Assembly: GCA_024711125.1 (NCBI GenBank)
Contig: JANJTM010000021.1
Coordinates: 1-40,820 of the forward strand
Origin: Rhodothermales bacterium
GTDB lineage: Bacteria; Bacteroidota; Rhodothermia; Rhodothermales; UBA10348
Direction: 5' to 3'
Length of the DNA: 40,820 nt
In this document: piece by piece, positions 3,201-22,970 of the stretch
Layout of the letters: each line of letters starts with the position of its first letter
How positions within the stretch are numbered: position 1 is the first letter of the stretch
The notes under the pieces: model-generated
The model's database searches: none
What the model was told of the DNA's origin: nothing
Seen by the model: the letters and a program-made list of their open reading frames with translations, nothing else
Position numbers and translations under genes: made by a program

Positions 3201-3365
3201 GCCCACCGTTCGACCGGCACGGAACGGTCCGACCAGGCGCCAGCTCAGGGCCGCGCAGACTTCGCAGTCCTGGGCTCGGGCGGGGAGCGCCGGCGGCGCG
3301 GCGGTGATCAGGAGGAGGAGGAGCGGAAGGAGGCGTTTCACGACATCGCACGGAAGACTCGACAT
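222..3365 (-). CDS. Secreted Asp-box (BNR/VPS10-like) beta-propeller protein
   Basis: A protein of 1047 residues. A hydrophobic signal peptide (LLPLLLLLITAAP, then an ALPARA-Q cleavage region) directs export. At least ten Asp-box motifs of the form S/T-x-D-x-G-x-T-W follow (for example DDYGRTW, TDAGRTW, TDGGRTW, VDGGTTW, EDAGETW, DDGGRTW, NGGRTW, NGGDSW, WDGGATW, HDFGATW and LDDGRTW), spread over roughly residues 80-720, so the body is one or two sortilin/sialidase-like propellers. The C-terminal third has an Ig-like segment and a helical tail. Proteins of this build are usually annotated as glycosyl hydrolase or BNR-repeat proteins, but no catalytic residues can be assigned here. The ATG at 3365 has no Shine-Dalgarno sequence. 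A GTG eight codons downstream (3341) would give a more typical signal peptide beginning VKRLLP. It probably acts in the periplasm or outside the cell. Confidence 0.85.
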   Translation of the reverse strand: MSSLPCDVVKRLLPLLLLLITAAPPALPARAQDCEVCAALSWRLVGPFRAGRTVGAAGVPQRPGTFYIGVNNGGVWKTDDYGRTWEPIFDRESTGSVGDIAVAPSDPDVIYVGTGEGLHRPDLSTGDGMFRSTDAGRTWTHIGLDDARQIAGIAVHPDDPDRVLVAAMGSPYGPTGEKGVYRTTDGGRTWSRVLYVDEHTRAMQVTYDPVRPDIVYADLWAHQEGPWENAAWSGATSGLYKSVDGGTTWKRLEGGLPTAEMGLGRVGFAIAPSLPDRVFATVEAREGSGIYRSEDAGETWTLVSTDQRVFDRGSDFAEIKVDPKNPDRVYTGSIASYRSDDGGRTWFSLKGAPGGDDYHRIWIHPDEPDIMLFATDQGATITVNGGRTWSSWYNQPTAQLYHVTTDDRFPYRVYGGQQESGAIMISSRSNGGQISFRDWVGVGADEYAYVAPDPLNPRYVYGGRVVRHDLETGQTKSVAPEALRSGKYRILRTMPLAFHPADPATLYFGTNVLFRTRNGGDSWDIVSPDLSREQPEVGESFPQWEGPAPRRGVIYSLGLSPLDADVIWAGTDDGLVHVTWDGGATWKDVTPPGMSSWDKVAQIDAGHFEKGTAYLAVNAFRKNDLRAHVYVTHDFGATWAHRAEGLPDDAPVNAVREDPKRPGLLYAATEKTVHASLDDGRTWFSLRLNLPPSSMRDLVVKDDDLVVGTHGRSIWILDNVTPLRQAADAASATGAYLFEPQLATRVRWNMFSDTPLPPEEPTGENPPDGAAIDYLLRADAKSVTLEILGPGGAVVRRYTNHDPSMAPDTTGLPHPTYWIRPEQQLSARAGMHRFHWDLRHEPPRGARRSYQIAAVLRNTESSPNGPWVLPGTYTVRLTVDGVASERKIAVRMDPRVTTTPDDWRAQSEVSLRTMAAYDRAQAAREEALAASARFGAAATDGRRLSRRSREAVRLAMEEAAAIAGAGDPGAADIAYGSATETPAERETLSGVQTKLIYLLTVVQNADERPTAQALDGIARLEAITDAVLARWQRVKTGSVARAERAIR

Positions 3366-8886: not shown

Positions 8887-10037
8887 TTACCACCCGTAGG
8901 GCCGCCGTTCGCTGTTCCGCCACCGGGTCGACCTGCCCCGGGCGCTCGCTCGTGGTGGGCTCGGCCGTGTTCGCGCTGCTGTTTCTCGCCGCGTCGGCGT
9001 CGGCCGTGGCGGCCTACGGCCAGGATGCACCCATCCTTGCCGAACGCGTGGAGGGGCTGCTCATCGGAACGCTCGTGGGAGACGCGCTGGCTTCGGGGGA
9101 CCCCGTCGAACGATCGGCCTGGACCCGTACAGAAACCCCGCTCACGGACGAGGGGCGGGCGGAACTCGCGCGGTCGATCCGGCTGAAGCCGGGCTCCCGA
9201 CCCGCCGCTCCGGACGGACCGTGGATATCGCAGGGCCCCGCCGGAACCCTGGGACCCGCCGCCCGCTGGCAGGTCCTGCTTTTCCGGAGTCTCGAAGCGG
9301 CTGCCGGTCCCGATCGACGCGCGCTGGCCGACGCCAGTCTCGCATGGTCGGCCGATTCCACGGGCCGTTTCGGAACGCTTCCGACCCGCTGGCTGCACCC
9401 GGTGGTCGCGGCCGCACGCGCCGCGTCAGCGGGCGAGACGCTCGACCCGGTGATGGGCGGGGACCCGCTCCCGCTGACGGCCGTCGCGGCGCTCGCCGCG
9501 CGCCGGCCCGACGTGGCGTACCGGATGGCCCGCGAGCTGGATTTCGCGGCCCGGCAGGGCAGCGCCGATTTCACGGCCGCACTGGTCGCCGGCATCGCGG
9601 CCGCCATGCAGGACGGCTCGACGCTGGACGCGGTGGAGCGCGCCATCCGCGAAACGGGAGGACCGGATGCATCGGATCGGCTCGATTTCGCTCGGAATGC
9701 GGTGAGCACGGCCGGGGACTCGCCGGCGCGCCTCTTCCGCCTGTTCGAGGCCGAACTCGACTCGTCGCCCGACGATTCATGGCTGGAGCTGGTCATGTCT
9801 CTCGCGTGCGCCCGGATTGCCGGGGAGGAGCCGCTGGCGGGACTTCGCCTCGCGCACGAGTTCGGGCCCCGCGGTTCGCGGGCGCTGCCCTGGGTCGGGG
9901 CCCTCCTCGGCGCCCTGCACGGCTCACGCATCTTCGTGCCGGTCGATCGCGCCGCGGTATCCCGTGCACTTCGTGAGGAGTACGGCGCAGGGCTCGGACC
10001 GTGGATGGTGGCGGTGGACCGCTACCGGGTACGCTGA
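8883..10037 (+). CDS. Exported ADP-ribosylglycohydrolase-like protein lacking metal-binding acids
   Basis: A 384-residue protein. Residues ~22-46 form a hydrophobic signal/anchor segment. The mature part begins with the family opening RVEGLLIGTLVGDAL (G66-D67) and ends with WVGALLGALHGSRIF (from W337), the first and last conserved helices of the ADP-ribosylglycohydrolase/DraG fold. The TDDT motif that binds the Mg pair is replaced by GPAA at residues 124-127, just before the conserved RW. The C-terminal Asp-x-Asp-Thr before GALLGALHG is absent. It is therefore probably not an Mg-dependent ADP-ribosylhydrolase; it may bind a ligand or have changed chemistry. Its ATG overlaps the DUF819 stop, so the two are made together. 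Its 3' end overlaps the GH18-like gene by 16 bases. Confidence 0.75.
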   Translation: MITTRRAAVRCSATGSTCPGRSLVVGSAVFALLFLAASASAVAAYGQDAPILAERVEGLLIGTLVGDALASGDPVERSAWTRTETPLTDEGRAELARSIRLKPGSRPAAPDGPWISQGPAGTLGPAARWQVLLFRSLEAAAGPDRRALADASLAWSADSTGRFGTLPTRWLHPVVAAARAASAGETLDPVMGGDPLPLTAVAALAARRPDVAYRMARELDFAARQGSADFTAALVAGIAAAMQDGSTLDAVERAIRETGGPDASDRLDFARNAVSTAGDSPARLFRLFEAELDSSPDDSWLELVMSLACARIAGEEPLAGLRLAHEFGPRGSRALPWVGALLGALHGSRIFVPVDRAAVSRALREEYGAGLGPWMVAVDRYRVR

Positions 10038-11101
10038 CCGCGTCCTTCGGAGCCCGGCGGCCGCAGCGCGTCCCACATCGCGGGATCCTCCGCGCCGAGC
10101 ACCCAGATCGAGACTCCCCGAAATCCCGGCCAGGTGCGCAGGAGGTCCAGTTTTGCGGCCATCGAGCGCGCATCTTCGAGGAACAGCCACTGCATCGTGC
10201 CCTCCGATTCCCAGCGGGCGAACGATACTCCCTGCTCGGCATCCCAGGTGAGCGGCGCTCCGGACTCGGTGAGCAGCTCCTGGGCCCGCTGCCACCCGAT
10301 TTCATGCCCGAAAACCCGCGCCGTGCGCGTATGCTCGACGTAACCCGGCGCCCACCAGCCGGAATAGAACGGAAGCCCCAAGGACACACGCTCGGGCCGA
10401 ACACCCGTTTCCAGCGCGTAGGTGACCATGCGGCGCATCCACGGTAGCCCGGCGATCGGCCCGGGGGCGGTCACCCCGCCGTGCTGGGCGTAGGTCATGT
10501 AGCTCAGGAAGTCTCCGATCGAATCCAGCGCCGCCAGGTCGTACGGATTTCGCCACCAATCCTGCATGTAGCGGGCGAACGGCGACACCCCGGGCGAGCC
10601 GTCGGTCGGAACGACCGCGGCCGACAACGTCATCCCGTTGGCGTGCAGCGCCTCGGCCGTCTCGCGGTAGTAGCCGGTGAACGCGTCGCGCAGCGAGACG
10701 TGGAGGTTCTCGTAGTCGAACTGCCAGCCCGCGAATCCGTGCTCGCGGCCCAAGCGCACCATGTCGTCGATCGAGCGGCGACGTGCCTCGGGGTGCTCGA
10801 GCATCACGCGCAGCGTATCCTGGTTGAACCCGGGATTTACGACAAGCGGAATCACGTCGATGTCCCACTCCTTCGCCGCGGCAAGCAGTTCGGGAGACAC
10901 CGCGCCGCGCAGCCGTCCGTCGGCGCCGGCGGCGAAGGCCTGCGGCGCGAGGATGTCGATGCGATCGGCCCATGGGCGCACGCGGTCGACGATCCCGGCG
11001 CCTCCTCCGCCCGTGTAGACGAGGATTTCCCGCGGCTGTGCCGAGGCTGCATTCGCGATACAGAGGACGACGATCCCGAGGATCCTGCAGACGATTCGCA
11101 T
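10022..11101 (-). CDS. Secreted GH18-like glycosidase (chitinase/chitobiase fold)
   Basis: A 359-residue protein with a signal peptide (IVVLCIANAASAQ). The family 18 barrel is recognised from the strand-4 motif GFAGWQFDYENL: D129 and E131 match the last Asp and the proton-donor Glu of DxxDxDxE, while the first two Asp positions are Ala and Gln. Other family traits are LSAAVVPT, FLSYMTYAQHG, VSLGLPFYSGWW and the late GVSIWVLGAED. Retention of the Glu suggests activity on an N-acetylglucosamine-containing substrate such as chitin, glycan or peptidoglycan, but the specificity is unknown. The ATG at 11101 is chosen for the signal peptide; the frame upstream to 11473 is not expected to be coding. 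A good TTTG-N20-TATTCTTG promoter lies just upstream. Confidence 0.82.
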   Translation of the reverse strand: MRIVCRILGIVVLCIANAASAQPREILVYTGGGGAGIVDRVRPWADRIDILAPQAFAAGADGRLRGAVSPELLAAAKEWDIDVIPLVVNPGFNQDTLRVMLEHPEARRRSIDDMVRLGREHGFAGWQFDYENLHVSLRDAFTGYYRETAEALHANGMTLSAAVVPTDGSPGVSPFARYMQDWWRNPYDLAALDSIGDFLSYMTYAQHGGVTAPGPIAGLPWMRRMVTYALETGVRPERVSLGLPFYSGWWAPGYVEHTRTARVFGHEIGWQRAQELLTESGAPLTWDAEQGVSFARWESEGTMQWLFLEDARSMAAKLDLLRTWPGFRGVSIWVLGAEDPAMWDALRPPGSEGRGQRTR

Positions 11102-11123
11102 GGTCGATGACGGGTTCCGACCG

Positions 11124-11155
11124 CAAGAATACCTTGCGCCGCGGGCAGGCCCAAA
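11124..11155 (-). promoter_or_regulatory. Bacteroidota-type promoter of the GH18-like gene
   Basis: On the minus strand TTTG (11155-11152) is followed after 20 bases by TATTCTTG (11131-11124), close to the TTTG / TAnnTTTG pair used by the Bacteroidota primary sigma factor. The box lies 22 bases before the ATG at 11101. Inferred from sequence similarity and position. Confidence 0.5.
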
Positions 11156-11180
11156 TGCGCCGAACACCGACAGGCCCATC

Positions 11181-11217
11181 AGGGCCGCCCCTACATGCTC
11201 AGGGCGGCGGTCCCCCT
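11181..11217. repeat. Pair of short GC-rich hairpin elements
   Basis: AGGGCCGCCCCT (11181-11192) and AGGGCGGCGGTCCCCCT (11201-11217) stand side by side between divergent genes. The second resembles AGGGCGGCTGCCCCCT at 13983 and AGGGCGGCAGCGCCCT at 34868. Each can fold into a small stem. They may be a dispersed palindromic element or transcript-end hairpins. Confidence 0.35.
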
Positions 11218-11303
11218 CGGCAGCGGGCTCGCCGGATTCGTAGTCTCCTGCTCCACGATCCGGCGCTCCCTGCCGATCACCGACCCCCAGTTCGCGTCCT
11301 GCC

Positions 11304-11954
11304 ATGTCCACCGCCCGCTTTCGCCTTCCGATAGCCGCCATCGCGCTCGGCTCGTTGCTCTTTTTCGGCGCCGTCGCACCGCAACGCGCAGATGACCGCG
11401 GCAAAGTGGTGTTCGAAACGTTGTGCGCGACGTGCCACTCCATGAATCCGCCGGCCCTGAAAGCGCCTCCCATGCTGATGGTGGCCGGGCACTACGTGGA
11501 GGCGCGATCGACGGAGGACGCCGCGATGGCCGCGATGAAGGAGTGGCTGCGCGGACCCGACTCCACGAAGTCGCTGCTTCCGGCCCACGCGATCCAGCGT
11601 TTCGGTCTCATGCCGCCGCTCGCCCTCCCGGCCGACGACATCGATGCCGTGGTGGCATACGTTTTCGCCGAACGCGCGAAGGCGGGTGCCCCCGAGCCGC
11701 ATCGGCACGGAGCGGACGCGGCACCGGACACGACGCGCATGCAGCCGGGCCAGGGATGCCAGGGCAACGGCTGCCGCATGCGCATGCAGCAGGGGCAAGG
11801 CATGCAGCACGGGCAGGGCATGCAGAACCGCCAGGGCATGCAGAACGGGCAGAATGCGGGGCAGGGGCACCAGTGCCCGATGCACCAGGGTGCCGCCGCT
11901 CCCGACTCGACGAAGGCCGGCGGAATGCGCCATCGGCACGGGCAGGGTCACTGA
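11304..11954 (+). CDS. c-type cytochrome with a Met/Gln/His-rich repeat tail
   Basis: A 216-residue exported protein: signal peptide (residues 1-~30, ending around VAPQRADD), then one cytochrome c domain with the haem motif CATCH at about residues 42-46 and a probable axial Met in RFGLMPPLALP, which precedes the typical C-terminal helix DIDAVVAYVF. From about residue 130 the protein turns into a low-complexity tail rich in Met, His, Gln, Gly and a few Cys (GQGCQGNGC, MQHGQ, HQCPMHQG, MRHRHGQGH), partly encoded by 18-base tandem repeats. Such tails often bind copper or other soft metals in the periplasm. Its stop overlaps the next ATG by one base (TGATG). CutC lies nearby. The electron-transfer partner is not visible. 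Confidence 0.87.
   Translation: MSTARFRLPIAAIALGSLLFFGAVAPQRADDRGKVVFETLCATCHSMNPPALKAPPMLMVAGHYVEARSTEDAAMAAMKEWLRGPDSTKSLLPAHAIQRFGLMPPLALPADDIDAVVAYVFAERAKAGAPEPHRHGADAAPDTTRMQPGQGCQGNGCRMRMQQGQGMQHGQGMQNRQGMQNGQNAGQGHQCPMHQGAAAPDSTKAGGMRHRHGQGH
11781..11852 (+). repeat. Four 18-bp tandem repeats in the cytochrome tail
   Basis: Units at 11781, 11799, 11817 and 11835, each 18 bases and of the pattern sGCATGCAGnnnsgsCAr. They encode RMQQGQ, GMQHGQ, GMQNRQ and GMQNGQ. The last three are nearly identical at the DNA level, suggesting recent slippage or unit gain. Length can be expected to vary between strains. Confidence 0.85.
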
Positions 11955-12421
11955 TGGGCCAGGTACCCGCCACGGTCGAAGCGTTCCTGGCCGGCCGGAC
12001 CCTCGCGGTCGCCGGCGTCTCCAGGAGCAGTGATCAGCCCGCGAATCTCATCTTCCGCAGGCTGATCGAGACCGGGCACACGGTGTACGCGATCAATCCG
12101 AACGCCGACACCGTCGAGGGGGTGGTGGCCTACCCATCCCCCACCGACCTACCCGAACCCGTGCACGGCCTCATGGTATGTACGGCACCCCGTGACGCCG
12201 AGGCGGTCGTGACGGCCGCGCTCGAAGCCGGGGTCCGCCACGTCTGGTTCCACCGATCCGTCGGGGAAGGCAGCGTGTCGGAAGGCGCCGTTGCTGCCTG
12301 CCGTTCGGCAGGCATTGAACCCATCGTCGGCGGATGCCCGATGATGTTCGCCGGCAAGGTCGACGTCGCCCACCGCTGCATGCGCTGGATCCTGCAGCGC
12401 ACCGGGAGCGTGCCCTCCTGA
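11954..12421 (+). CDS. CoA-binding protein (CoA_binding_2, Rossmann fold)
   Basis: A 155-residue protein consisting of a single CoA-binding Rossmann domain like that of succinyl-CoA synthetase alpha. Visible traits are LAVAGVSRSSDQPANLIFRRL near the N-terminus, TVYAINPNADTVEG, VHGLMVCTAP, VWFHRSVGEGS and a final PIVGGCPMMF. Stand-alone proteins of this family (YccU-like) bind CoA but their role is unknown; they lack the His-containing catalytic part. Its ATG overlaps the stop of the cytochrome gene, indicating translational coupling. It is convergent with cutC, ending 21 bases from it. Confidence 0.88.
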   Translation: MGQVPATVEAFLAGRTLAVAGVSRSSDQPANLIFRRLIETGHTVYAINPNADTVEGVVAYPSPTDLPEPVHGLMVCTAPRDAEAVVTAALEAGVRHVWFHRSVGEGSVSEGAVAACRSAGIEPIVGGCPMMFAGKVDVAHRCMRWILQRTGSVPS

Positions 12422-12442
12422 CGGTCGGGACCCGGTTCGATC

Positions 12443-13108
12443 TCAGCCGCGCAGAGCCCGTACGATCCCGGGTACACCCTCGGCCCGGGCGTGCACCTCG
12501 GAAGCCCCCGTCCTCGCGACGAGTTCCGCCACGTGATCGCCGCGCACCTTGCCGGCCAGCAGCACGGTGAGCCGGCCCGCGGCCTGCGAGACCAGGGTAG
12601 CGAGGCGATCCGCACCGTCGATTGCCCGCTCCGTGTGCCCCGAGGTCAATATTCGGGACGCGCCCAACTCGACCAGGGTCTCCAGGGCCTCCCGGGCATC
12701 CGGGGTGACGTCGAAGGCCTTGTGGAAGGTCACGGGCAGCGGCCCGGCCGCCGTGATGAGCCGCGCGGTCGCCTCCCGCTGGACGCTGCCGTCCGGGTGA
12801 ACCGCTCCGATCACGATGCCGTCGGCCCCCGCTTCGCGGACGGCCGTGACATCACGCTCCATGGCCGCTACCTCGTCGGGGGTCGACACGTAGTCGTCGC
12901 CCCGAACGCACACCATCACGAACACGGGGATCGTCACGGACGCCTTGACCTCCCGGACGAGGTCGGCCGGCGGCGTGAGCCCCCCCACGTGCAGGTCGAC
13001 GCAGAGTTCGAGGCGATCGGCGCCCGCCCGCTCGGCCGCCACCGCCTCATCCACCGAGGTGACACACGCCTCGACGAGCACGCGTGAGGGGAATCCGCTT
13101 TCTTTCAT
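12443..13108 (-). CDS. cutC: CutC family protein (copper homeostasis)
   Basis: A 221-residue TIM-barrel protein of the CutC family. Diagnostic segments are VEACVTSVDEA at the start, RLELCVDLHVGGLTPP, IVIGAVHPDGS, the signature TFHKAFD and ILTSGHTERAIDG. The usual MIRPR strand reads MVCVRGDDYVS, so a conserved Arg-Pro is changed. CutC was linked to copper tolerance in E. coli, though that role has been questioned and the biochemical activity is unsettled. It is transcribed alone from the gap at 13109-13392 and faces the cytochrome/CoA-binding pair. Confidence 0.9.
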   Translation of the reverse strand: MKESGFPSRVLVEACVTSVDEAVAAERAGADRLELCVDLHVGGLTPPADLVREVKASVTIPVFVMVCVRGDDYVSTPDEVAAMERDVTAVREAGADGIVIGAVHPDGSVQREATARLITAAGPLPVTFHKAFDVTPDAREALETLVELGASRILTSGHTERAIDGADRLATLVSQAAGRLTVLLAGKVRGDHVAELVARTGASEVHARAEGVPGIVRALRG

Positions 13109-13392
13109 GGTACCTGGCGCGGTCGGAAGGATGCCGCTTCGATCGCCGCCGCGCCTTCCGGTTCCGCGCAGATCCTGTCGTCCCGTGCCCCATTCCGCGG
13201 TCGATCCGGGGCGTGTTCACGCTATCGGTCGACCACCGCCCCGGCACTTCGTGCCTGCGGGGGTCGGGGTTACGAATCGTGGACTGGCCCGAGCCCCGCG
13301 GCCCCGCAGATCGGCTCCCTGAAACGCCGGAACCGTCTCCGACACGAACGGGTTGCAGCTTGTCATTACAAGTAGTCCGCCGACATCGCCCC
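13109..13392. other. Gene-free divergent intergenic region
   Basis: This 284-base stretch separates cutC (leftward) from the DUF442 lipoprotein gene (rightward). The open frames in it lack a plausible start or any recognisable protein, and are typical of chance frames in GC-rich DNA. It should hold promoters for both genes. The only clear structure is the inverted repeat at 13359-13372. Confidence 0.5.
13359..13372. promoter_or_regulatory. Inverted repeat CTTGT-CATT-ACAAG upstream of the DUF442 gene
   Basis: A perfect 5-base inverted repeat with a 4-base centre ends 20 bases before the ATG at 13393. It is more AT-rich than its surroundings and could be an operator or part of a promoter. A TTG lies just before it at 13353. 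Too short to be certain. Confidence 0.3.
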
Positions 13393-13974
13393 ATGCGCAC
13401 TCGTCCCGTCATTGCAGCGCTCCTGCTCACCGCCGCCCTGTTCGTTCAGGCGTGCGCCGCCGAAACCGAAGCCGCGAACCCGGTCGGCAGGACCGCGGTG
13501 GTCGCGGTGCCTTCCGACACGCTGAAGCCCGCGTCCATCGGGGCGATCCCCAACGTGCACCGGGTCGGAAACGTGATCTTCGCCGGTCAGCCGGCCCCCG
13601 CCGACTTCGCCGCCCTGCAGGCCGAGGGCGTCACGAAGGTCATCAACCTGCGTCCCGAGGCCGAGATGGGCGGTTTTGACGAGGCTGCGGCGGCCGAAGC
13701 GGCCGGCATGGGCTACGCGTCCGTTCCGTGGAACGGTCCGGCGCAGCTCACCGACGAAGTGTTCGGCCAGACCCGCGAATTGCTGCGGTCCGCCGAGGGC
13801 AATACGCTGCTGCACTGCGCATCGGCGAACCGGGTCGGAGCGGTCTGGATTCCCTTCCGCGTGCTGGACCAGGGCATCGACCTCGAGCAGGCGGTGGCCG
13901 AAGCGAAGGCCATGGGCATGCGCACGGCCGAGTACGAGACGAAGGCCCGGGACTACGTGGCGCGGAACCGTTAG
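13393..13974 (+). CDS. DUF442/beta-lactamase-hydrolase-like phosphatase lipoprotein
   Basis: A 193-residue protein with a lipoprotein signal (LLLTAALFVQAC; lipobox VQAC), so it is probably anchored to a periplasmic face. The body matches the BLH/DUF442 phosphatase-like domain: VGNVIFAGQPAPADFAAL, then GVTKVINLRPEAE, and the P-loop LLHCASANRVGAVW. The nucleophilic Cys and the loop Arg are present with four residues between them; the loop glycine common in the family is Ala. Related proteins act as phosphatases or sulfur-handling enzymes; the substrate is unknown. Preceded by the gap at 13109-13392 and followed by a hairpin at 13983. Confidence 0.8.
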   Translation: MRTRPVIAALLLTAALFVQACAAETEAANPVGRTAVVAVPSDTLKPASIGAIPNVHRVGNVIFAGQPAPADFAALQAEGVTKVINLRPEAEMGGFDEAAAAEAAGMGYASVPWNGPAQLTDEVFGQTRELLRSAEGNTLLHCASANRVGAVWIPFRVLDQGIDLEQAVAEAKAMGMRTAEYETKARDYVARNR

Positions 13975-14053: not shown

Positions 14054-14575
14054 ATGGCCGACGTGCGAATGCGGCCGCGGTTTCGACGCGCGGTCCCATG
14101 TGATCCCGACGCCGTGCTGGCGTCGATCGCCGAGCTCGTCGGCGACCCGCACTCGGCCATCGAGGGTCGCGTCTTCGATTCGTCGGCCGTCCTGAGGCCC
14201 GAATCGTCGAGCCTCCGGTTCTGGTCGCCGCAGCTCCAGCTTTCGGTGGAGCGACGCGAAGGCGAAGGCTCGCTCCTGCTCGGCCTCTTCGGACCCCATC
14301 CGACCATCTGGTCGCTGTTCGTGGCCCTGTACGTGGCAGCCGGGTTCCTCGGCACGATGGGCGCCCTCTTCGGATATGCCCAGTGGATCCTGGACCGGCC
14401 GGCGACGGCGCTGTGGACCGTTCCCGCGGCCGGTGCGCTGGCCGCGATCACGTACGTGGTCGCACGCACCGGGCGCCGGCTCGGCAGCGACCAGACCCGC
14501 CTCCTCTACGACGCCGTGAATGCGCGGATGGACGCCCTGTGCGCGCAGGCCACGGTCCCGTCTTCCGCACCATGA
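14054..14575 (+). CDS. Small membrane protein of unknown function
   Basis: A 173-residue protein. Residues 1-~85 are soluble and mixed-charge; two hydrophobic helices follow (WSLFVALYVAAGFLGTMGALF at about 87-107 and WTVPAAGALAAITYVVA at about 121-137), then a short charged C-terminal part. I do not recognise the family. CATCTTCCGG lies about 30 bases upstream of the ATG and resembles the local promoter box. The stop overlaps the next start by four bases (ATGA), so it is translationally coupled to the DUF5107 protein and may be its membrane partner. Confidence 0.75.
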   Translation: MADVRMRPRFRRAVPCDPDAVLASIAELVGDPHSAIEGRVFDSSAVLRPESSSLRFWSPQLQLSVERREGEGSLLLGLFGPHPTIWSLFVALYVAAGFLGTMGALFGYAQWILDRPATALWTVPAAGALAAITYVVARTGRRLGSDQTRLLYDAVNARMDALCAQATVPSSAP

Positions 14576-17500
14576 ACCGCACCGTCCTGGCGGTGCTGGC
14601 CCTTCTGGCGGCCGGCACCGCGAACATCGTCTCGGCCCAGGTCGTGGCCACCGAGGAATTCCGCACGATCCGCACGTACCCGTTCGGTCGGCCGGACCCC
14701 GTGCCGATGCTGGCGCGCGACGCCCGCATGTATCCCTACCACGCCTTTGACGGCTACTCGGTCGACGGGCGCCCCGCCGAGTGGCGCACGGTGCGGCTCG
14801 AGAACGAGCACATCGCCGTCTGGGTGCTTCCGGATGTGGGCGGAAAGGTCTGGGGCGCCGTCGAGAAGGCCGGCGGCGAGGAGTTCATCTACCGAAACGA
14901 GGTGATGAAATTCCGCAACATTGCCCTGCGTGGGCCCTGGACCTCGGGCGGCATCGAGTTCAACTTCGGCGTGATCGGGCACGCCCCCTGGACCGCGACC
15001 CCCGTCGATTACGTGGTCGAGAAGAACTCGGACGGCAGCGCGTCGGTCGTCGTCGGGGCGATGGACATCCCGTCCCGCACGTTCTGGAGGGTGCGCATCC
15101 GCCTGGGGAACGGCGAATCGGCCTTCACCACCGAGACGCTGTGGTACAACCCGACGCCCCTGGCCCAGCCGTACTACAACTGGATGACGGGCGCGACCTT
15201 CGCCCGCCAGGACCTCGAACTCCAGGTGCCGGGCACTCGGTATCTCGGCCACGGCGGCCACGCGTCCCCGTGGCCGGTCGACGACAAGGGCCGCAATCTC
15301 GCGAACTACCGGGAGAACACGTTCGAGAGCCACAAGTCGTACCACGTCGTCGGCGAATTCCAGGATTTCTTCGGAGGGTACTTCCACGACGGGCAGTGGG
15401 GATTCGGCCACTGGGCGCCCTATTCCGACCATCCCGGCCAGAAGATGTGGCTCTGGTCGCTCGCGGGCGACGGCGAGATCTGGGACCCGCTGCTGACCGA
15501 CACCGACGGGCAGTACGTGGAATTCCAGGCGGGGCGGCTCTTCGTGCAGTACAGCCAGGGCGATCCGACCAACCCGATCCGGGAGGCGTCCTTCGACCCG
15601 TACCGGACCGATCGCTGGGCCGAACGGTGGTTTCCGATCCGGACGATCGGCGGAATGGACGAGGCGAGCGCGTCGGGGGTCCTGCACGTGGAAACCGACG
15701 GAGACGTCGCGAAGGTCGGGCTCAACGCGTTCCGGGCGGGGGAGGCGACGGTCGTGGTGCGCTCCGGCGGCCGCGTCGTCGCGCGGCGGCCCGTGACGGT
15801 GCGCCCGCTGGCCGCCGTCGTCGAGCGCGTGGCCGGCATCGACCCGGCCGACCTCGAGATCGCCGTGCCCGAACTGGGCCTCTCCTGGTCGTCGCGACCC
15901 GATTCCACGCGGCTCGACCGGCCCTTCGCCACCGACGCCTACCCGGTGCACACACGCACCGAACCGGACCGTCTCGCGATGACCGCGGCCGAGCTCGTCG
16001 ACGCCCGCCGGCTGCCCGAGGCCCGTGCCACCGTGGAGCGGGCCCTGCGGCTCGATCCCTGGAACCCGACGGGACTGCGGGTGGCCACGGACCTCGCCCT
16101 GCGTTCGGGACGCGCGGCGGACGCGGTCGGGAGCGCGCGCCGGCTCCTGCAACTCGACGCCTACGATCCGGGCGCGAACTGGCTGGCCGGCCTCGCGTAC
16201 CGAGCCGCCGGGCACCGCACCGACGCCCGCGAGGCCTTCGGCTGGGCGGAACGCGCCACGGCGTACCGCCACGCGGCGCACGTCCAGCTGGCCGAGCTCG
16301 CCCTGGGTGACGCGGCCTACGACGAGGCCGCTCGGCACGCCGACCGCGCGCTGGCCTATGACGTGGACGGTATCGCGGCGTGGATGGTGAAGGCCGTCGC
16401 GCTGCGACGTGCGGGCCGCGCCGAAGAGGCGGCGGCGGCACGGGCCCGCCTGCTCGAACTCGATCCGCTCCACCACGGGGCGCGGATGGAGACCTGGCTG
16501 GCGACCGGCGCGACCCGGGACCGGGATGCGGCGCGCGCGGCGATCCGGAGCGAACTCGCCGAGCAGACCTGGCTGGAACTCGCCGCGGGGTACCTCGGGC
16601 AGGGGCTTGCCGACGACGCCGCGCGCGTGTTGTCGATCGCACCGGACCCTGCCGAGGTGCTCGTGTGGCGCGCCTGGCTGGCCAGGGACACCGACCCGGC
16701 CGCTTCGGCGCGCCTGCTGTCGGACGCCATCGCCCGAAGTCCGGGCTTCGTTTTCCCGTTCCGACCCGAATCGCTGGAGATTTTCGAATGGGCCGACGGG
16801 GCTTCGGACGCGTGGCCCGTCACCTGGTGGCGCGCGCTCCTGCTGTGGGGCCTCGATCGACCGGAGGAAGCCGCGACACTGTTTGCCGAACTGGGTGATG
16901 CGCCCGACTACGGACCGTTCCACGCATCGAGGGCCGCGCTGGGCGCCACACTGGCCGGCCGCGAAGCCGTCCGGTCTTTCCCGCCCGCGGCCGACGACCT
17001 GTACCGGGCCGTCTCGCTCACGCCCGACGTTCCCCAGCTCCGGCATCGCCTCGTCGACGAGCTGGGCCGTCTCGATCGCTGGGAGGACGCGCGCTCCGAG
17101 GCCGAGCGATCCGTGGAGGCCATGCCCGCGGAGTTCTCGCTGGTCCTGAAGTGGGCCCGCACCCTGCTCGAGACCGACCACCACGACCAGGCGGCCTCGC
17201 TGCTCGACACCGTACGCGTACTTCCATCGGAAGGGGGCGGCAACGGTCGCCAGCTCTACGAGTGGGCCCACCTGGCGCGGGCACTCGATCGCGTCGGGGC
17301 CGGGGACCGTGAAGACGCACTGCGGGAGATCGGGCGCAGCCTGGAATGGCCTCCGTCGCTCGGCCAGGGCAGGCCGTACGACCCGGACGAGCGGTTCCAG
17401 ATCGCCCTGCGCGGGTTGCTGCATGCCGACGCCGGCCGCGCCGACGATGCGGCCCGAGATGCCAGAGCCCTCGTCGAATGGCGCGCCGGGCACCCGGCCG

Positions 17501-17751
17501 CTCCGGCCGCCGTCGACGCCCTGGTCCATCGTACGCTTCGGGCAGCCGGGCTCGACGAGGAGGCCGGGGCCCTGCGCACGGAGCTGTCGCGTCGCCTCGC
17601 CGACCCTTCGGCCGCCTGGGCGCTGGCCCGAATCGACGGATCACGCCAGGCATCGGACGCCGTGCTCGCGGCGTATCCCCGGTTGCGTACCGACTACGGG
17701 TTCCGCCTCGTCGCCCGCGCGCTTGACCGGTCCGCGCCCTCCGGCCGCTGA
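14572..17751 (+). CDS. Secreted DUF5107 domain protein with C-terminal TPR repeats
   Basis: A 1059-residue protein with a signal peptide (VLALLAAGTANIVSAQ). Residues ~35-400 match the DUF5107 domain: ENEHIAVWVLPDVGGKVWGAV, FIYRNEVMKFRNIALRGPW, SGGIEFNFGVIGHAPW and WYNPTPLAQPYYNWMTGA, an aromatic-rich beta fold reminiscent of sugar-binding or mutarotase-like supersandwiches. The rest, from about residue 460, is a long series of tetratricopeptide-like helical pairs (for example RLPEARATVERALRLDPWNP). Proteins of this build are common near glycosidases in Bacteroidota; the activity is not known to me. It is coupled to the upstream membrane protein and lies 37 bases before the DUF6067-like gene. 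Confidence 0.85.
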   Translation: MNRTVLAVLALLAAGTANIVSAQVVATEEFRTIRTYPFGRPDPVPMLARDARMYPYHAFDGYSVDGRPAEWRTVRLENEHIAVWVLPDVGGKVWGAVEKAGGEEFIYRNEVMKFRNIALRGPWTSGGIEFNFGVIGHAPWTATPVDYVVEKNSDGSASVVVGAMDIPSRTFWRVRIRLGNGESAFTTETLWYNPTPLAQPYYNWMTGATFARQDLELQVPGTRYLGHGGHASPWPVDDKGRNLANYRENTFESHKSYHVVGEFQDFFGGYFHDGQWGFGHWAPYSDHPGQKMWLWSLAGDGEIWDPLLTDTDGQYVEFQAGRLFVQYSQGDPTNPIREASFDPYRTDRWAERWFPIRTIGGMDEASASGVLHVETDGDVAKVGLNAFRAGEATVVVRSGGRVVARRPVTVRPLAAVVERVAGIDPADLEIAVPELGLSWSSRPDSTRLDRPFATDAYPVHTRTEPDRLAMTAAELVDARRLPEARATVERALRLDPWNPTGLRVATDLALRSGRAADAVGSARRLLQLDAYDPGANWLAGLAYRAAGHRTDAREAFGWAERATAYRHAAHVQLAELALGDAAYDEAARHADRALAYDVDGIAAWMVKAVALRRAGRAEEAAAARARLLELDPLHHGARMETWLATGATRDRDAARAAIRSELAEQTWLELAAGYLGQGLADDAARVLSIAPDPAEVLVWRAWLARDTDPAASARLLSDAIARSPGFVFPFRPESLEIFEWADGASDAWPVTWWRALLLWGLDRPEEAATLFAELGDAPDYGPFHASRAALGATLAGREAVRSFPPAADDLYRAVSLTPDVPQLRHRLVDELGRLDRWEDARSEAERSVEAMPAEFSLVLKWARTLLETDHHDQAASLLDTVRVLPSEGGGNGRQLYEWAHLARALDRVGAGDREDALREIGRSLEWPPSLGQGRPYDPDERFQIALRGLLHADAGRADDAARDARALVEWRAGHPAAPAAVDALVHRTLRAAGLDEEAGALRTELSRRLADPSAAWALARIDGSRQASDAVLAAYPRLRTDYGFRLVARALDRSAPSGR

Positions 17752-17788
17752 TCTCCACCGTTGGTACCGAACCGTCCGGGCCGCTCCC

Positions 17789-20700
17789 ATGCGCTCCATA
17801 CAGCTCCTCCTGGCCGCCCTGCTCCTGCAGTCCTGCGACCCGTCGACGCCCCCGCTGCCGCCCGAAGGCCCCGGTCCGGTCATCGACGGCGTGCGCTTCG
17901 TGCCCGGGAACTGGGTCCACGACCTGCCGAGCGGCGAGGCCGGCGCCTCGCGAGGGTACCACCGCGTGGTGGTCGAGATCGATTCCGCGGCGGCGTCCGC
18001 GCCGGCGGTATTGGCCATCCTGCCATGGCGTCGACCCGACGCCGACCCGCAGACCAAGGATGTGCTGGTCTTCGATGCCGCGGGCGATGGCCCGGTCGTG
18101 GACCGGATCACGGTTCGGGTCACCGGCGACGAGGGTGCGGTCATCTTCCGACCGAATCCCGGATCGACCGTCTACCACCTCTACTACCTGCCGTACGAAA
18201 CAGGCGGAGGCTACTACCCGAACGTGACGTGGCGGCCACCCACGGTGACGGCCGATCCTGCCTGGGCGGCGTCGGTCGGCGAGCCCGCCGCTCTGCCGCA
18301 AGCGACGGCGGTGGCGGTCGAGTGGCAGGACGACTTCCATTCCTTCTTCCCGATGCAGGTCGCCGCCACCGTTCACGAAACACGCGGAATCGCGGACGAC
18401 GCAGGGGGGCCGTTCGTGCTCTTTCCCGAGGACCGGCTGCGCCCGATCCGCATGCGGGACCGGATTCCGTTCCATTGGGCCGCGACGGGGCCTTCGGACC
18501 GATTCGAGGGTGCCGCCCGGCCCGGCGAGGCCTACACGTTCCAGCTCGGCGCCTGGGCCGTGCGGGATACGGTGCGTGACGTCCGCGTGACGTTCGGCAC
18601 GTTCACGCTGGACGGCGAAGAACTCCCCGCCACGGCCCTCACCTGCTTCAACCTGGCCGGAATCGACGAAGCGGGGCGGCCGTTCACGAAGCGGGTGGAC
18701 GTGCCCGCAGGCGAAGTGCAGCCGCTCTGGATCGGCGTCGACCTTCCGGACCGTGCGGGCCTCGTCGAGGGCACGGTGACCGTGTCCGCCGGGACGGCCG
18801 CGAGCACGGTCGCGGTTTCGGTCCGCGTCGGTGGCCCTGCGGCCGTCAACCGCGGGTTCAACGAGCCGGAGAACCAGTCCCGCCTGGCGTGGCTGAACTC
18901 GACGGTCGGAAGCGACCCCGACTACGTCGTGCCTCCGTACGAGCCGGTTGCGGTCGAGGGCGCCACGCTGCGCGTGCTCGGACGCGTGATCCGGCTCGGC
19001 GCCGAGGGCCTTCCGGACGCGATCGCGAGCCGATTTACGCCCGCGATGACGTCGATCGGCGAGGTCGACCACCCCGTCCTTGCGGCACCGATCCGTTTTG
19101 ATGCCGTCGTTTCGGGAGCGCGCGAGCCCTGGACGAGCGAGGCGTTCACTCCCGCTTCGGTCGCGAAAGGACGCGCGGAGTGGGCGGTCGCGAGCCGCTC
19201 GGCTTCGTTCGACCTGGAAACGCTCGGCGCGATCGAGTATGACGGCATGATCGAGGTGCAGCTCCGGCTCGTCGCGCGAAGGAACGTCACGGTCGACGAC
19301 CTGCGCCTCACGATCCCGTACGCGCCCGAAGCCGCGACGTGGATGCTCGGCCTCGGGCGCAGAGGGGGACGCACCCCGGAGTCCGTCGACTGGACGTGGA
19401 ACGTCGAGAACCACCAGGAAGGCGCCTGGCTCGGCGGCGTGAACCGCGGGCTGCAGTACGTGCTGCGCGATCCGGGCTACGTGCGACCCCTCAACACCAA
19501 CTTCTACCGCAACCAGCCCCTGCGCCTGCCCGACGCGTGGGTGAACGGCGGGCGGGGCGGCATCCGCATCCGGCGCACCGCCGACGCGGTCGAAGCCCTC
19601 AATCACTCCGGCCCCCGGTCGCTCGCCGCGGGCGATACGCTGCACTTCACGGTGCGCTTCCTGGTGACGCCCTTCCGCGCACTCGACACGCGGTCGCACT
19701 TCGCGACACGCTTCGTACACCAGTACGTGCCGGTGGACACCGTGAAGGCGTGGGGCGGAACGGTGGTCAACATCCACCACGCGAACGCCATCAACCCGTA
19801 CATCAACTACCCGTTCTACGCGCTGGAAGAGCAGAAGGCCTACATCGACGAGGCCCACGCCAAGGGCGTCAAGGTCAAGCTGTACAACACGATCCGCGAG
19901 CTGACCTACCGGGCCCACGAGCTCTTCGCCCTGCGCAGCCTGGGCGACGAGATCCTCAACGGCGGGGAGGGCGGCGGGCATCCGTGGCTGCAGGAGCACC
20001 TGGGCTCAGACTACCATTCCGCCTGGCATGCCTACACGGTCGACGATGCGGCGATCCTGGACAAGGGCACGTCCCGCTGGACCAACTACTACGTCGAGGG
20101 CCTCAAGTGGCTCGCCGAATACCAGCGGATCGACGGCCTCTACCTCGACGACATCGCCTTCAGCCGCGAAACGGTCAAACGCATCGTCAACGTGCTCCAC
20201 GAGCACCGCGACGAAGTCGTGATCGACCTGCACTCGGCGAACCAGTACAACGTGCGGGACGGCTGGACGAATTCGGCCTTCCTGTACATGGAGCACTTCC
20301 CGTACGTGTCGCGCCTCTGGTTCGGCGAGTACTTCGACTACTCGAGCGACCCGGACTTCTGGCTCACCGAGGTCAGCGGTATCCCGTTCGGCCTGATGGG
20401 AGAAATGCTGCAGGACGGCGGTCATCCCTACCGGGGACTGCTTCACGGCATGACCTCCCGCAAGTACGGCGATACCGATCCGCGACCGGTCTGGGCGATG
20501 ATGACCGATTTCGGAATCGAGGACAGCCGGATGCTCGGGTACTGGCTCGACCCGCCGCCCGTCACGGTCGACAACCCGCTCGTCCGTGCGACGGCCTACG
20601 TGCGGCCGGACGGCACCGCGCTCGTCGTGCTGGCCTCATGGGCCGCTGTCGACCAGACGGTGCGGCTGTCGTTCGACACCCGGGTGGCCTCGGACCCCGG

Positions 20701-20821
20701 CCGTCTCGACCTGCGCGCGCCCGCCGTCGAGGGCCTTCAGCCCGAGGCTCGATACGGGCTGGGCGAGGCCGTCCGCATTCCGGCCAACCAGGGCCTGTTT
20801 CTCCTGCTCGAACCCCGGTAA
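17789..20821 (+). CDS. Lipoprotein with a glycoside-hydrolase-like barrel (DUF6067-like)
   Basis: A 1010-residue protein with a lipoprotein signal (LLLAALLLQSC; lipobox LQSC). The N-terminal ~600 residues are beta-rich modules. The C-terminal ~400 form a predicted TIM barrel with strand motifs GTVVNIHHANAINPYINYPF, GVKVKLYNTIREL, RIDGLYLDDIAFSR (D787, D788), EVVIDLHSANQYN and LWFGEYFDY, followed by a small beta domain. Paired acids at a strand end, as in YLDD, are typical of glycosidase active sites, and the layout agrees with DUF6067 / GH123-like predicted glycosidases. The substrate is unknown. It is probably cotranscribed with the DUF5107 gene. It is convergent with the next gene, only 8 bases apart, with no clear terminator. 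Confidence 0.8.
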   Translation: MRSIQLLLAALLLQSCDPSTPPLPPEGPGPVIDGVRFVPGNWVHDLPSGEAGASRGYHRVVVEIDSAAASAPAVLAILPWRRPDADPQTKDVLVFDAAGDGPVVDRITVRVTGDEGAVIFRPNPGSTVYHLYYLPYETGGGYYPNVTWRPPTVTADPAWAASVGEPAALPQATAVAVEWQDDFHSFFPMQVAATVHETRGIADDAGGPFVLFPEDRLRPIRMRDRIPFHWAATGPSDRFEGAARPGEAYTFQLGAWAVRDTVRDVRVTFGTFTLDGEELPATALTCFNLAGIDEAGRPFTKRVDVPAGEVQPLWIGVDLPDRAGLVEGTVTVSAGTAASTVAVSVRVGGPAAVNRGFNEPENQSRLAWLNSTVGSDPDYVVPPYEPVAVEGATLRVLGRVIRLGAEGLPDAIASRFTPAMTSIGEVDHPVLAAPIRFDAVVSGAREPWTSEAFTPASVAKGRAEWAVASRSASFDLETLGAIEYDGMIEVQLRLVARRNVTVDDLRLTIPYAPEAATWMLGLGRRGGRTPESVDWTWNVENHQEGAWLGGVNRGLQYVLRDPGYVRPLNTNFYRNQPLRLPDAWVNGGRGGIRIRRTADAVEALNHSGPRSLAAGDTLHFTVRFLVTPFRALDTRSHFATRFVHQYVPVDTVKAWGGTVVNIHHANAINPYINYPFYALEEQKAYIDEAHAKGVKVKLYNTIRELTYRAHELFALRSLGDEILNGGEGGGHPWLQEHLGSDYHSAWHAYTVDDAAILDKGTSRWTNYYVEGLKWLAEYQRIDGLYLDDIAFSRETVKRIVNVLHEHRDEVVIDLHSANQYNVRDGWTNSAFLYMEHFPYVSRLWFGEYFDYSSDPDFWLTEVSGIPFGLMGEMLQDGGHPYRGLLHGMTSRKYGDTDPRPVWAMMTDFGIEDSRMLGYWLDPPPVTVDNPLVRATAYVRPDGTALVVLASWAAVDQTVRLSFDTRVASDPGRLDLRAPAVEGLQPEARYGLGEAVRIPANQGLFLLLEPR

Positions 20822-20829
20822 GCCACGAT

Positions 20830-22266
20830 TCAGCGTACCAGGGCAACCGGGCGCGAACTCCGTACACCGTCGACGACGAACACCACGTGGTACACGCCCG
20901 ACGGCAGGCCGTCGGCGTCGAACCGCACTTCGTGCCGGCCCGCGGACAACGGTTCGTCAACGAGCGTAGCGACGCGGCGTCCCGTTCCGTCAATCACTTC
21001 CAGGACCACCCGGGCGCGCGACGCCAGGTCGAACGGGACGAGCACCGAGGGATTGAACGGGTTCGGATAGGCCGCATGGAGCACGAATCCGGCCGCAAGA
21101 ACCGGGTCCGACTCGGCGGCCGTCGTTCCCGTCGTCCACCAGAACTCCTGGAGGCGGTCGGGCAGCAGTTCGGTCGGGTTCATGAAATTGATCATGTAGT
21201 CGGTCGCGCTCCGGAGGAGACCCGACCCGTCGTAGTAGGCGTACTCCTCCTGGGAAAACAGCATCCAGGACCCGTCCCCGGCGTTGTGCATCTCGAGCCT
21301 GGTCGACTCCAGCAATCCCGAAGGTCCGTATCGGTACGAGTAGCGGTTGGCAAAAGCCCAGGCCGACCCGTCATGACCGTCCATGTAAAAATGCACGGTG
21401 CGGCCCTGTGTGTCCGTTTCGATCCGGGTCCGGTCTACCTCCCGCCACGCGGTACCGGTCCACTCGTAGTTGACCGTGGGCGGAAAGAGAAGGAACAGCC
21501 GCATGCTGGTCACCATCTGCTCGGCCTCCGCAGCGAGCCTTTCAGACCACGCAACCAGGTCGGCGAATCCCATGCCCGGGTAGATCGTGCGCAGGTGCGG
21601 CGTCCACTCCGTTCCGCTCCACTCGTAGAAGACCTGCGACAGCATGCCCCCGGCCTCCTCGTACACCTCCCGCTCCAGGTTGACCCATGCCGAGCCGTTC
21701 CAGTCCCGGATCAGGATTTCCGCGGCCCAGCCGCCCGAATACGTGAACTGCGTATGCAGATCCGGAACCCAGGCGATTCCGTCCCACGTTTCTTCCAGTT
21801 CTTCGGTGAGCAGGAAGGTCCCGCCGGGGCCCGACGAATACGTGTACCGGGTTCGGTTCGTTGACCAATAAGCCCCCGGTCCGGGATCCCAGGTTTCGTA
21901 CACGGCCTCGATCATGCCCGCCGGGCCGTAGGTGAAGGTCTCCCGGAGGTCCGGAACCCACGACGCGGTCGACTCGACCCAGACCCGGGTTTCGATGGAG
22001 GTTCGCTGTCCCCCGACGTAGGTATGCCGGGTTTCGGTACCCGGTGCCCACGCCGCGCCGTTCCACGCCGACTCGACAACGCGGTCCAGGAGGTCCGAGC
22101 CGGAGAGGCGGCCATGTGCGGACGGCAGGAGGTCCGGCAAGGCAGCCAGCCGCTCGGCGACGGGCGAATCGAGGATCCGGGGTTGAGCCCTCATGGGCGA
22201 GGCGCCTGCCCAGGCAAGCGCAGTCAGAAGGCCGAGGCCGGCGCGCAGGGCGAAACGGGTAGTCAT
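20830..22266 (-). CDS. T9SS-sorted secreted protein with W-x-G-x-x-W repeats
   Basis: A 478-residue protein with a signal peptide (LGLLTALAWAGASPMRAQ), a repeat body and a type A type-IX sorting domain starting AAYPNPFNPS near residue 398 and ending RPVALVR. Between residues ~65 and ~380 a unit of about 28-32 residues recurs eight or nine times: W-N/D/S-G-x-A-W, a R/H-x-x-Y-T-Y strand, a glycine turn, L/I-x-E, and a final Trp (for example WDGIAWVPDLHTQFTY and WNGSAWVNLEREVY). This suggests an elongated beta-hairpin or propeller surface protein. The ATG at 22266 is supported by GGAGG eight bases upstream (22275-22279) and by the signal peptide. No function is assigned. Confidence 0.85.
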   Translation of the reverse strand: MTTRFALRAGLGLLTALAWAGASPMRAQPRILDSPVAERLAALPDLLPSAHGRLSGSDLLDRVVESAWNGAAWAPGTETRHTYVGGQRTSIETRVWVESTASWVPDLRETFTYGPAGMIEAVYETWDPGPGAYWSTNRTRYTYSSGPGGTFLLTEELEETWDGIAWVPDLHTQFTYSGGWAAEILIRDWNGSAWVNLEREVYEEAGGMLSQVFYEWSGTEWTPHLRTIYPGMGFADLVAWSERLAAEAEQMVTSMRLFLLFPPTVNYEWTGTAWREVDRTRIETDTQGRTVHFYMDGHDGSAWAFANRYSYRYGPSGLLESTRLEMHNAGDGSWMLFSQEEYAYYDGSGLLRSATDYMINFMNPTELLPDRLQEFWWTTGTTAAESDPVLAAGFVLHAAYPNPFNPSVLVPFDLASRARVVLEVIDGTGRRVATLVDEPLSAGRHEVRFDADGLPSGVYHVVFVVDGVRSSRPVALVR

Positions 22267-22448
22267 GGGGTATTCCTCCGTGAATGGCACGATCCACTTC
22301 CGGCATGGCGACCGGTTACCCAATGTGGCCCTTCGGTGCCCGCCGCTCAAGGGGAGAACTTCCGCGCCCGATCGTGCATCAAAGCGTCCGTCCAGCGTCA
22401 TCCGGAGCGCCCGGGACGCGTGATCCCGAACCCTACGAGGCTGCTCGC

Positions 22449-22970
22449 ATGGAATTCCTGGGCCGACCCGATCCTTCGGAATACGCCGTGTATTACCACG
22501 GATACGTTGCGGCGGCTCCGGATGGCGACCTCGCCAGGTCCCTGCGCGAGCAGGCATCGCAGATCGTGCAGCGCCTCGAACGGGTTCCGGCCGAGCGGGA
22601 GGGGTACCGATATGCCGACGGCAAATGGTCCGTTCGTGAGGTCGTCGGCCACATGAGCGACACCGAGCGGGTCTTTTCCTATCGACTTCTGGCCTTTGCC
22701 CGGGGAGACTCGGCCGAACTGCCCGGAATGGACCAGGAGGTCTACATCGCCGGCTCCCGCTTCGACGAGCGTCCGCTCGCTTCCATCGCGGCCGAGTTCG
22801 CCGCCGTGCGCGCGGCGACGCTCGCGCTCGTCGAGAGCCTCCGGCCCGAAGACACGGACCGTGTCGGCGTCGCGTCGGGATATCCCGTCTCGGTGCGTGC
22901 GCTGGCCTGGATCATCGCGGGACACGCCCAGCACCATCTCGACGTCCTTCGCGACCGGTACGGGGTATGA
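22449..22970 (+). CDS. DinB-superfamily putative metalloenzyme
   Basis: A 173-residue four-helix-bundle protein of the DinB/YfiT superfamily, which usually holds a divalent metal through three histidines. Candidate ligands are the His in VREVVGHMSDTE and the pair in IIAGHAQHHLDVL. The PAEREGYRYADGKWSVREVV segment is typical of the subfamily. Members act as thiol-dependent transferases or have no known role; the substrate is not predictable. The start at 22449 is chosen over the longer frame from 22284, which has no conserved content. Its stop overlaps the tspO start (ATGA), so the two are coupled. Confidence 0.87.
   Translation: MEFLGRPDPSEYAVYYHGYVAAAPDGDLARSLREQASQIVQRLERVPAEREGYRYADGKWSVREVVGHMSDTERVFSYRLLAFARGDSAELPGMDQEVYIAGSRFDERPLASIAAEFAAVRAATLALVESLRPEDTDRVGVASGYPVSVRALAWIIAGHAQHHLDVLRDRYGV

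Follow-up and report, generated by a model that had tools for sequence, protein, structure and literature searches.

A widespread gene pair of a mutarotase-fold TPR protein and a predicted glycosidase filed as 'GH123_N' in a Rhodothermales bacterium

Two adjoining genes, here named B and C, were analysed on a 40,820-nucleotide stretch of DNA (the window, at its full length) from a Rhodothermales bacterium (assembly GCA_024711125.1, contig JANJTM010000021.1, positions 1 to 40,820). Gene B encodes a secreted protein with a DUF5107 domain and tetratricopeptide repeats (TPR), and gene C a probable lipoprotein that matches the family PF19543 ('GH123_N') over its full length. B and C form a real and widespread pair of a partner protein and a predicted enzyme, and the catalytic half, judged by its sequence, is filed under a misleading family name. 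With modest confidence, the pair is read as a conserved secreted glycan-processing unit, in which C would be a retaining alpha-type glycosidase and B a sugar-handling partner.

Conservation of the pair was assessed in 60 near genomes (own genome included), in a phylum sample of 394 genomes and in 80 named loci. Relatives of C are common, with at least 570 matching stretches in one genome collection, and the 80 named loci are the best of these by similarity to the window's C; four of them coincide with near genomes (L078=G018, L080=G011, L083=G027, L101=G016). Among the near genomes, PF19543 was found in 7/60 and DUF5107 in 9/60, and two genomes (G001 and G006) carry B without C. All seven C-bearing near genomes have B directly upstream, so the B-C part of the gene order proposed by an earlier reading of this DNA (the first-pass annotation) is kept in relatives: six carry both genes on one contig, and in G027 the end of B lies at a contig edge, upstream of C.

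In the phylum sample, 22/394 genomes gave any match to PF19543 and 11 (own included) a full-length C, with B adjoining in seven of these 11, namely the window and six genomes from a single genus. Eight of the other 11 PF19543-matching genomes match only model positions ~253-311; the same segment is matched by a true GH123 protein, and these short matches therefore represent the sandwich common to both. G290 matches model positions 190-310. Two short proteins (G133:C2:790847-791584 and G419:C79:69269-69943) cover only the central part of the PF19543 model (~340-609) and differ in this from the GH123-type cross-matches.

B accompanies C in 36 of the 80 named loci (23 upstream and 13 downstream of C), on the same strand in every case. 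By record title, the C loci belong to Bacteroidota, Gemmatimonadota, Acidobacteriota, Neomarinimicrobiota, Aminicenantes and a few others, and the B-C pair was seen in Gemmatimonadota, Acidobacteriota, Neomarinimicrobiota, Aminicenantes and many Bacteroidota; it is thus not limited to the Rhodothermota.

A tree of C was built with FastTree from 74 sequences: 66 of the 76 C proteins longer than 940 aa from the 80 loci, the window's C, L057 and six of ten phylum-sample proteins. L087 and nine Chitinophaga, Pedobacter and Mucilaginibacter rows were omitted, chosen by name and not by measured identity, and the tree is without L109 and L111 (in the latter, a Neomarinimicrobiota contig, gene C is split into two overlapping frames at 9971-13200). 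The B set comprised 43 sequences, 29 of the 30 B proteins longer than 900 aa (L103 was dropped) and 14 others. On the C tree, B is upstream in 24/24 cases in a clade of 33 (B-first) and downstream in 14/14 cases in a clade of 41 (C-first, clade II), and the switch between the two orders amounts to one change. Distances among B proteins and among C proteins were correlated (r = 0.85 over 30 loci, with 0/2000 permutations as high), also within orders (r = 0.95 over 18 loci and 0.89 over 12 loci); vertical descent common to both genes contributes to this correlation.

Several counts weigh against a tight pairing. In 27 of the 80 named loci, B is missing although C is flanked by at least 3.5 kb on either side (a further 17 loci without B have less than 3.5 kb on at least one side and are uninformative on its absence); B does not stand beside C in 4/11 phylum-sample genomes with a full-length C; and B (>380 bits) is without C in 8/15 phylum-sample genomes. 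Moreover, the 80 loci were chosen by similarity to the window's C and are no random draw. As each gene is found without the other, neither strictly requires the other. This would also suit an ordinary neighbourhood with no functional link between B and C, an explanation that we regard as extremely improbable in view of the shared strand in 36/36 loci, the two lineage-specific orders, the spread over several phyla and the mostly adjoining frames. The occurrence of B and C side by side in several phyla argues instead for joint work on one glycan, and it is very likely that the two proteins work together in this way.

The unit consists of two genes, B and C. A third gene, A, directly upstream of B, had been counted as a member in the first-pass annotation, and this three-gene unit was rejected. 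Relatives of A were found in 24/60 near genomes (own included), but adjoin the pair only in the window and G003. Four genomes (G011, G018, G022 and G027) carry the pair and have the A relative on a different contig, at least 1.5 kb from the following contig end, so that the separation cannot be put down to a contig break; G016 carries the pair and gave no match to A. Of the 23 B-first named loci, 16 extend at least 1 kb upstream of B, and a profile search found A in none of these 16. The product of gene A shows two hydrophobic segments (19-residue windows from 88 and from 119, with hydropathy 1.99 and 1.67) and matched no Pfam or NCBIfam family. The gene A of G003 (L057 16036-16556) is spread over two reading frames, which indicates a broken gene or an assembly error. 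In the window, a BLH-phosphatase-like gene (13084-13974, + strand) lies upstream of A, and a similar gene seems to stand before A in G003.

C matched PF19543, which we take to be the former DUF6067, with 1143.5 bits (cut-off 22), C 54-1007 being aligned with positions 7-968 of the 969-position model. The Pfam name GH123_N would make C a GH123 beta-N-acetylgalactosaminidase (beta-NGA) with substrate-assisted catalysis and a DE pair, and C 240-353 does match the N-terminal sandwich of that family (96% in a profile comparison with four GH123 proteins). A search of the C profile against the PDB likewise returned only GH123-type enzymes, over the sandwich region alone, and a single-sequence search against solved proteins gave no convincing match (best E 0.17). 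The alignment with the four GH123 proteins stops before the barrel; the catalytic-domain family PF13320 (GH123_cat) had no match in C (E <= 0.1) and none in the whole genome (E <= 0.001); the strand-end pair is DD in 74/74 sequences, and not DE; and in Ilyomonas (L124) a true GH123 gene lies directly before C. GH123 membership of C was therefore rejected, and we consider a GH123 activity very improbable. The GH123 catalytic motif is described as DE (PMC11087588), and an annotation tool lists PF19543 as a GH123 domain (PMC13355591), so surveys using PF19543 may count beta-GalNAc enzymes that are absent.

The AlphaFold2 model of C (74 sequences) had a mean predicted local distance difference test score (pLDDT) of 91.4 and a predicted template modelling (TM) score of 0.89. 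Domain limits and strand numbers were read off the secondary structure of this model, in which N-terminal sandwiches, a supersandwich, a barrel and a C-terminal sandwich follow one another in the GH36 order; the predicted fold is of an already known kind. The top Foldseek match was FpGalNase, the blood-A galactosaminidase of Flavonifractor plautii, a GH36 enzyme (8x1b, E 2.6e-16, TM score 0.45 by target), C 392-1010 being aligned with FpGalNase 44-696 over the GH36 supersandwich, (beta/alpha)8 barrel and C-terminal sandwich. In VIA-align, C and FpGalNase were superposed with Z 17.1 over 505 residues, with a root-mean-square deviation (rmsd) of 8.1 A, which indicates that the domains match and that their mutual placement differs. 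Single domains of C reached Z ~16-17 at 3-4 A (PL26 lyase, GalM, GH13 barrels and GH174), among them GalM on C 386-627 with Z 16.4 and GH13 barrels with Z ~16. A profile comparison with seven GH66 proteins aligned C 679-879 (probability 78%, E 1.7e-5) and set IDGLYLDD of C on FDGFHIDQ; the GH66 family PF13199 had no match in C (E <= 0.1) and none in the genome (E <= 0.001).

Conservation within C is by far the highest in the barrel: the mean identity of the barrel to the window is 0.674, versus 0.32-0.43 in the other domains, 77/287 positions are invariant, and so are 23/48 strand-end positions (p 4.8e-4). D787, D788, E835, E847, E861 and E872 are invariant in 74/74 sequences. The YLDD-bearing barrel named in the first-pass annotation was recovered, since YLDD (785-788) ends a predicted barrel strand; the test set there beforehand, on paired acids at strand ends, was answered by invariant acids at these places in the predicted structure, and the predicted barrel holds up in this respect. 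In the GH66 alignment D787 falls on an Asp, and E835 is paired with the Glu of YTEVW; this Asp and Glu are presumably the catalytic residues of GH66. The nucleophile is likely to be D787, at the end of strand 4 by count on the model; the acid/base is likely to be E847, which follows strand 6, or failing that E835.

Alternatively, C might bind glycans or play a structural role, with a barrel that has lost its catalytic function, or it might be a lyase or an isomerase and not a hydrolase. A PL26 lyase (5xqg) came first in VIA-align (C 377-836, Z 17.6), the block that holds E847 has a pLDDT of 73, and CD98/4F2hc ectodomain barrels, which are not known to be active, were among the structural matches. 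Sequence drift would be expected in a barrel without activity, and conservation of the barrel across phyla, strand-end acids included, makes this alternative quite unlikely.

Some results speak against C as a retaining glycosidase of GH36-like build. VIA-align placed many families within 1 Z of each other, with the PL26 lyase nominally first; such rows are tied, and no single nearest family of C can be named from them. The C profile gave no alignment with five GH36 proteins, the GH36 K-x-D motif reads Y-L-D in C, and PF02065 (GH36) had no match in C in a Pfam scan (E <= 0.1); direct kinship with GH36 by sequence was rejected. The acid/base is ambiguous, E835 (from the GH66 alignment) lying in a helix of the model and E847 being indicated by strand order, and the blocks ~811-830, 841-850 and 871-880 of C have pLDDT values of 69-77.

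B matched PF17128 (DUF5107) with 403.9 bits (cut-off 24.4; B 52-356, model positions 5-310 of 310). Although the Pfam TPR matches were below curated cut-offs, the helices 456-1054 of the model align with TPR structures, which bears out the earlier description of a DUF5107 protein with a long TPR array. The N terminus is signal-peptide-like, and the model (43 sequences) had a pLDDT of 89.3. B 23-359 was superposed on the galactose mutarotase GalM 4bze with Z 24.4 (3.0 A over 271 residues) and on 1l7k with Z 21.6; the match to 5cd6 reached Z 34.8 over 551 residues and was also found by single-sequence search. K92, K113, R115, R120, E129, H137, E317 and Q319 are invariant in 43/43 B sequences, and E129, H137, E317 and Q319 are kept in the distant 5cd6.

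The GalM fold and these four residues would allow B to be the principal catalyst of the unit, as an aldose 1-epimerase or another enzyme of mutarotase fold that is fed by C in a salvage step. QYVEFQ of B also resembles the E-x-Q in the consensus of the GalM family (CLETQ), in a segment over which the profiles do not align. The B profile found no match among 13 GalM-family proteins, a result that counts against both this alternative and the sugar-handling role preferred here: kinship of B with GalM by sequence was rejected, and a catalytic triad of His, His and Glu in B is putative. In addition, the TPR arm and the co-inheritance with a secreted enzyme are equally suited to a scaffold or binding role, and we hold B as the main enzyme to be unlikely.

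On the preferred reading, C would be a cell-surface or periplasmic lipoprotein and a retaining alpha-type glycoside hydrolase of GH36-like build, with extra N-terminal sandwiches, one of them common to GH123. B would most likely bind, or convert the anomer of, a sugar met or released by C, with its TPR arm as a scaffold that may bring the two proteins into contact. A galacto- or galactosamino-type substrate is weakly preferred, and an algal polysaccharide would be a guess. The lipoprotein assignment is consistent with lipobox-like N termini in 24/33 C proteins of the B-first clade, which looks to be mostly lipoproteins by this crude pattern, versus 0/41 in the C-first clade.

Neighbouring genes in relatives were identified by Pfam scans of hand-picked representatives of neighbour clusters, the remaining members being named by similarity. 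SusC and SusD lie near C in some clade II relatives: in L134, L142 and L149 (Mucilaginibacter, Flavobacterium) the order is SusC, SusD, an ASST-like propeller, cytochrome c, C and B, with one gene between C and B in L149 and a GH35 gene two genes after B in L142. In L127 and L150 (Tannerellaceae), ASST, chromate-transporter-family and sulfotransferase genes before C make up a sulfate-themed operon; no paper on arylsulfotransferases in combination with polysaccharide utilization loci and SusC turned up in a literature search. A sulfatase precedes B in L106 and L107. The upstream slot of B, directly before C, is taken by a PIG-L protein in L100, L104 and L105, and by a GH95 protein, itself preceded by an alpha-L-rhamnosidase, in L096 and L098. 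Four loci with B and without C were scanned. An FG-GAP/UnbV protein is encoded upstream of B in L072 and L074, and a SusC-type receptor ~3 kb away on the opposite strand in L073; neither was among the scanned proteins of L062.

The glycan-processing machine of the first-pass annotation thus stands in part: the B-C unit is conserved, and both folds, like the SusC/SusD genes near some clade II relatives, accord with a glycan role; gene A as a third component does not stand. A bolder proposal, which we regard as doubtful, is that C represents a separate glycoside hydrolase family, now counted as GH123, and acts with its mutarotase-fold TPR partner on galactosamine-type or sulfated glycans. If so, the gene of the PIG-L deacetylase that replaces B before C in some lineages would suggest a deacetylate-then-cut route like that of the F. 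plautii A-antigen pair.

Coordinates are collected in Table 1. The three open reading frames (ORFs) lie where the first-pass annotation had placed them, with the same protein lengths; the TGA of gene A is shared with the ATG of gene B (ATGA), and 37 bases separate the stop of B from gene C. All three are coding sequence by their G+C at the three codon positions (A 0.707/0.552/0.851; B 0.746/0.533/0.883; C 0.698/0.485/0.882; window 68.6% G+C). A search for signals bounding the operon gave no sigma-70 promoter-like site and one terminator-like site, inside gene B, versus 2.4 expected.

Table 1. Positions in the window of the three genes and of the domains and residues of their products.
Feature	Position	Strand	Description and basis
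Gene A	14054-14575	+	173 aa, two-helix membrane protein; adjoins the B-C pair, not a conserved member
Gene B	14572-17751	+	1059-aa secreted protein, DUF5107 (PF17128) and TPR
B 25-357	14644-15642	+	Galactose-mutarotase-fold (supersandwich) DUF5107 domain; model and alignment
B 369-440	15676-15891	+	Small beta domain; model
B 456-1054	15937-17733	+	TPR superhelix; model and TPR structure matches
Gene C	17789-20821	+	1010-aa probable lipoprotein, full-length PF19543 ('GH123_N')
C Cys16	17834-17836	+	Lipobox-like cysteine (LLQSC); sequence and crude pattern test
C 31-352	17879-18844	+	N-terminal beta domains; model; 240-353 homologous to the GH123 N-terminal sandwich
C 380-627	18926-19669	+	Beta-supersandwich; model; aligned with GalM and the N-domain part of FpGalNase
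C 635-921	19691-20551	+	(beta/alpha)8 barrel; model; most conserved part
C D787-D788	20147-20152	+	YLDD, residues 785-788; end of barrel strand 783-787 (strand 4 by count on model); D787 proposed nucleophile
C E835	20291-20293	+	In YMEHFP; alternative acid/base; paired with the Glu in YTEVW of GH66
C E847	20327-20329	+	Just after barrel strand 842-845 (strand 6 by count on model); proposed acid/base
C 922-1010	20552-20818	+	C-terminal beta-sandwich; model

Elsewhere in the window, seven of ten chosen ORFs matched no family (E <= 0.001), several of them being probably wrong frames. The minus strand carries a 1047-aa protein with Sortilin-Vps10/BNR repeats (222-3365; similar propellers adjoin C in L115 and L149), a GH18-domain protein (10022-11473, 69.2 bits) and a 575-aa protein convergent with gene C (20830-22557), whose match to a C-terminal sorting domain of type IX secretion stayed under the curated cut-off. 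The first-pass annotation had reported no SusC/SusD pair; in agreement with this, SusD (PF07980) had no match at E <= 0.001 in the window's whole genome, SusC not having been searched for. Eight sulfatase matches were obtained in this genome, all on other contigs.

Literature searches on DUF5107, DUF6067, PF19543 and PF17128 returned no apparent functional work and no assigned chemistry, and for these two families the B-C pair is a concrete enzyme-plus-partner unit. The papers listed for BDI_1685 or 5CD6 had no bearing on this protein. The closest description of a C-like protein is that of dssm_1 (Sumida et al. 2024), which according to the paper has five domains, with a second domain like the GH123 N-domain and a GH66-like barrel, has neither the DE motif nor DUF4091, and was set aside as no beta-NGA candidate (PMC11087588). 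This domain build fits C, and dssm_1, judged from the description alone, probably belongs to the PF19543 family.

Among solved structures, FpGalNase (8x1b, 9awt and 9ayu, the best Foldseek matches) has the same order of N-domain, barrel and C-domain as C; this build is given in its description, where the variants D463A and D532A are nearly inactive (PMC11762096). Identity to C is 9-11%, with an rmsd of 8-10 A over the whole, and C differs in having more N-terminal beta domains, YLDD for K-x-D, and a barrel profile that matches GH66 and not GH36. The GH66 dextranases and CITases share with C the barrel profile match and the aligned Asp, at 78% probability and with no PF13199 in C. Retaining GH97 enzymes are described as carrying an Asp in the beta4 loop and a Glu in the beta6 loop (PMC12446779), the same arrangement as D787 and E847 of C, the agreement being in residue position only. 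For B, GalM (4bze, 1l7k) has the fold of residues 23-359 and no profile match, and B differs from it by the signal-peptide-like N terminus and the TPR arm. The B-like build of a mutarotase-like domain followed by TPR is found in BDI_1685 of Parabacteroides distasonis (5cd6), which is shorter (575 residues in the structure), has 24% identity to B and bears a PDB title that names no function.

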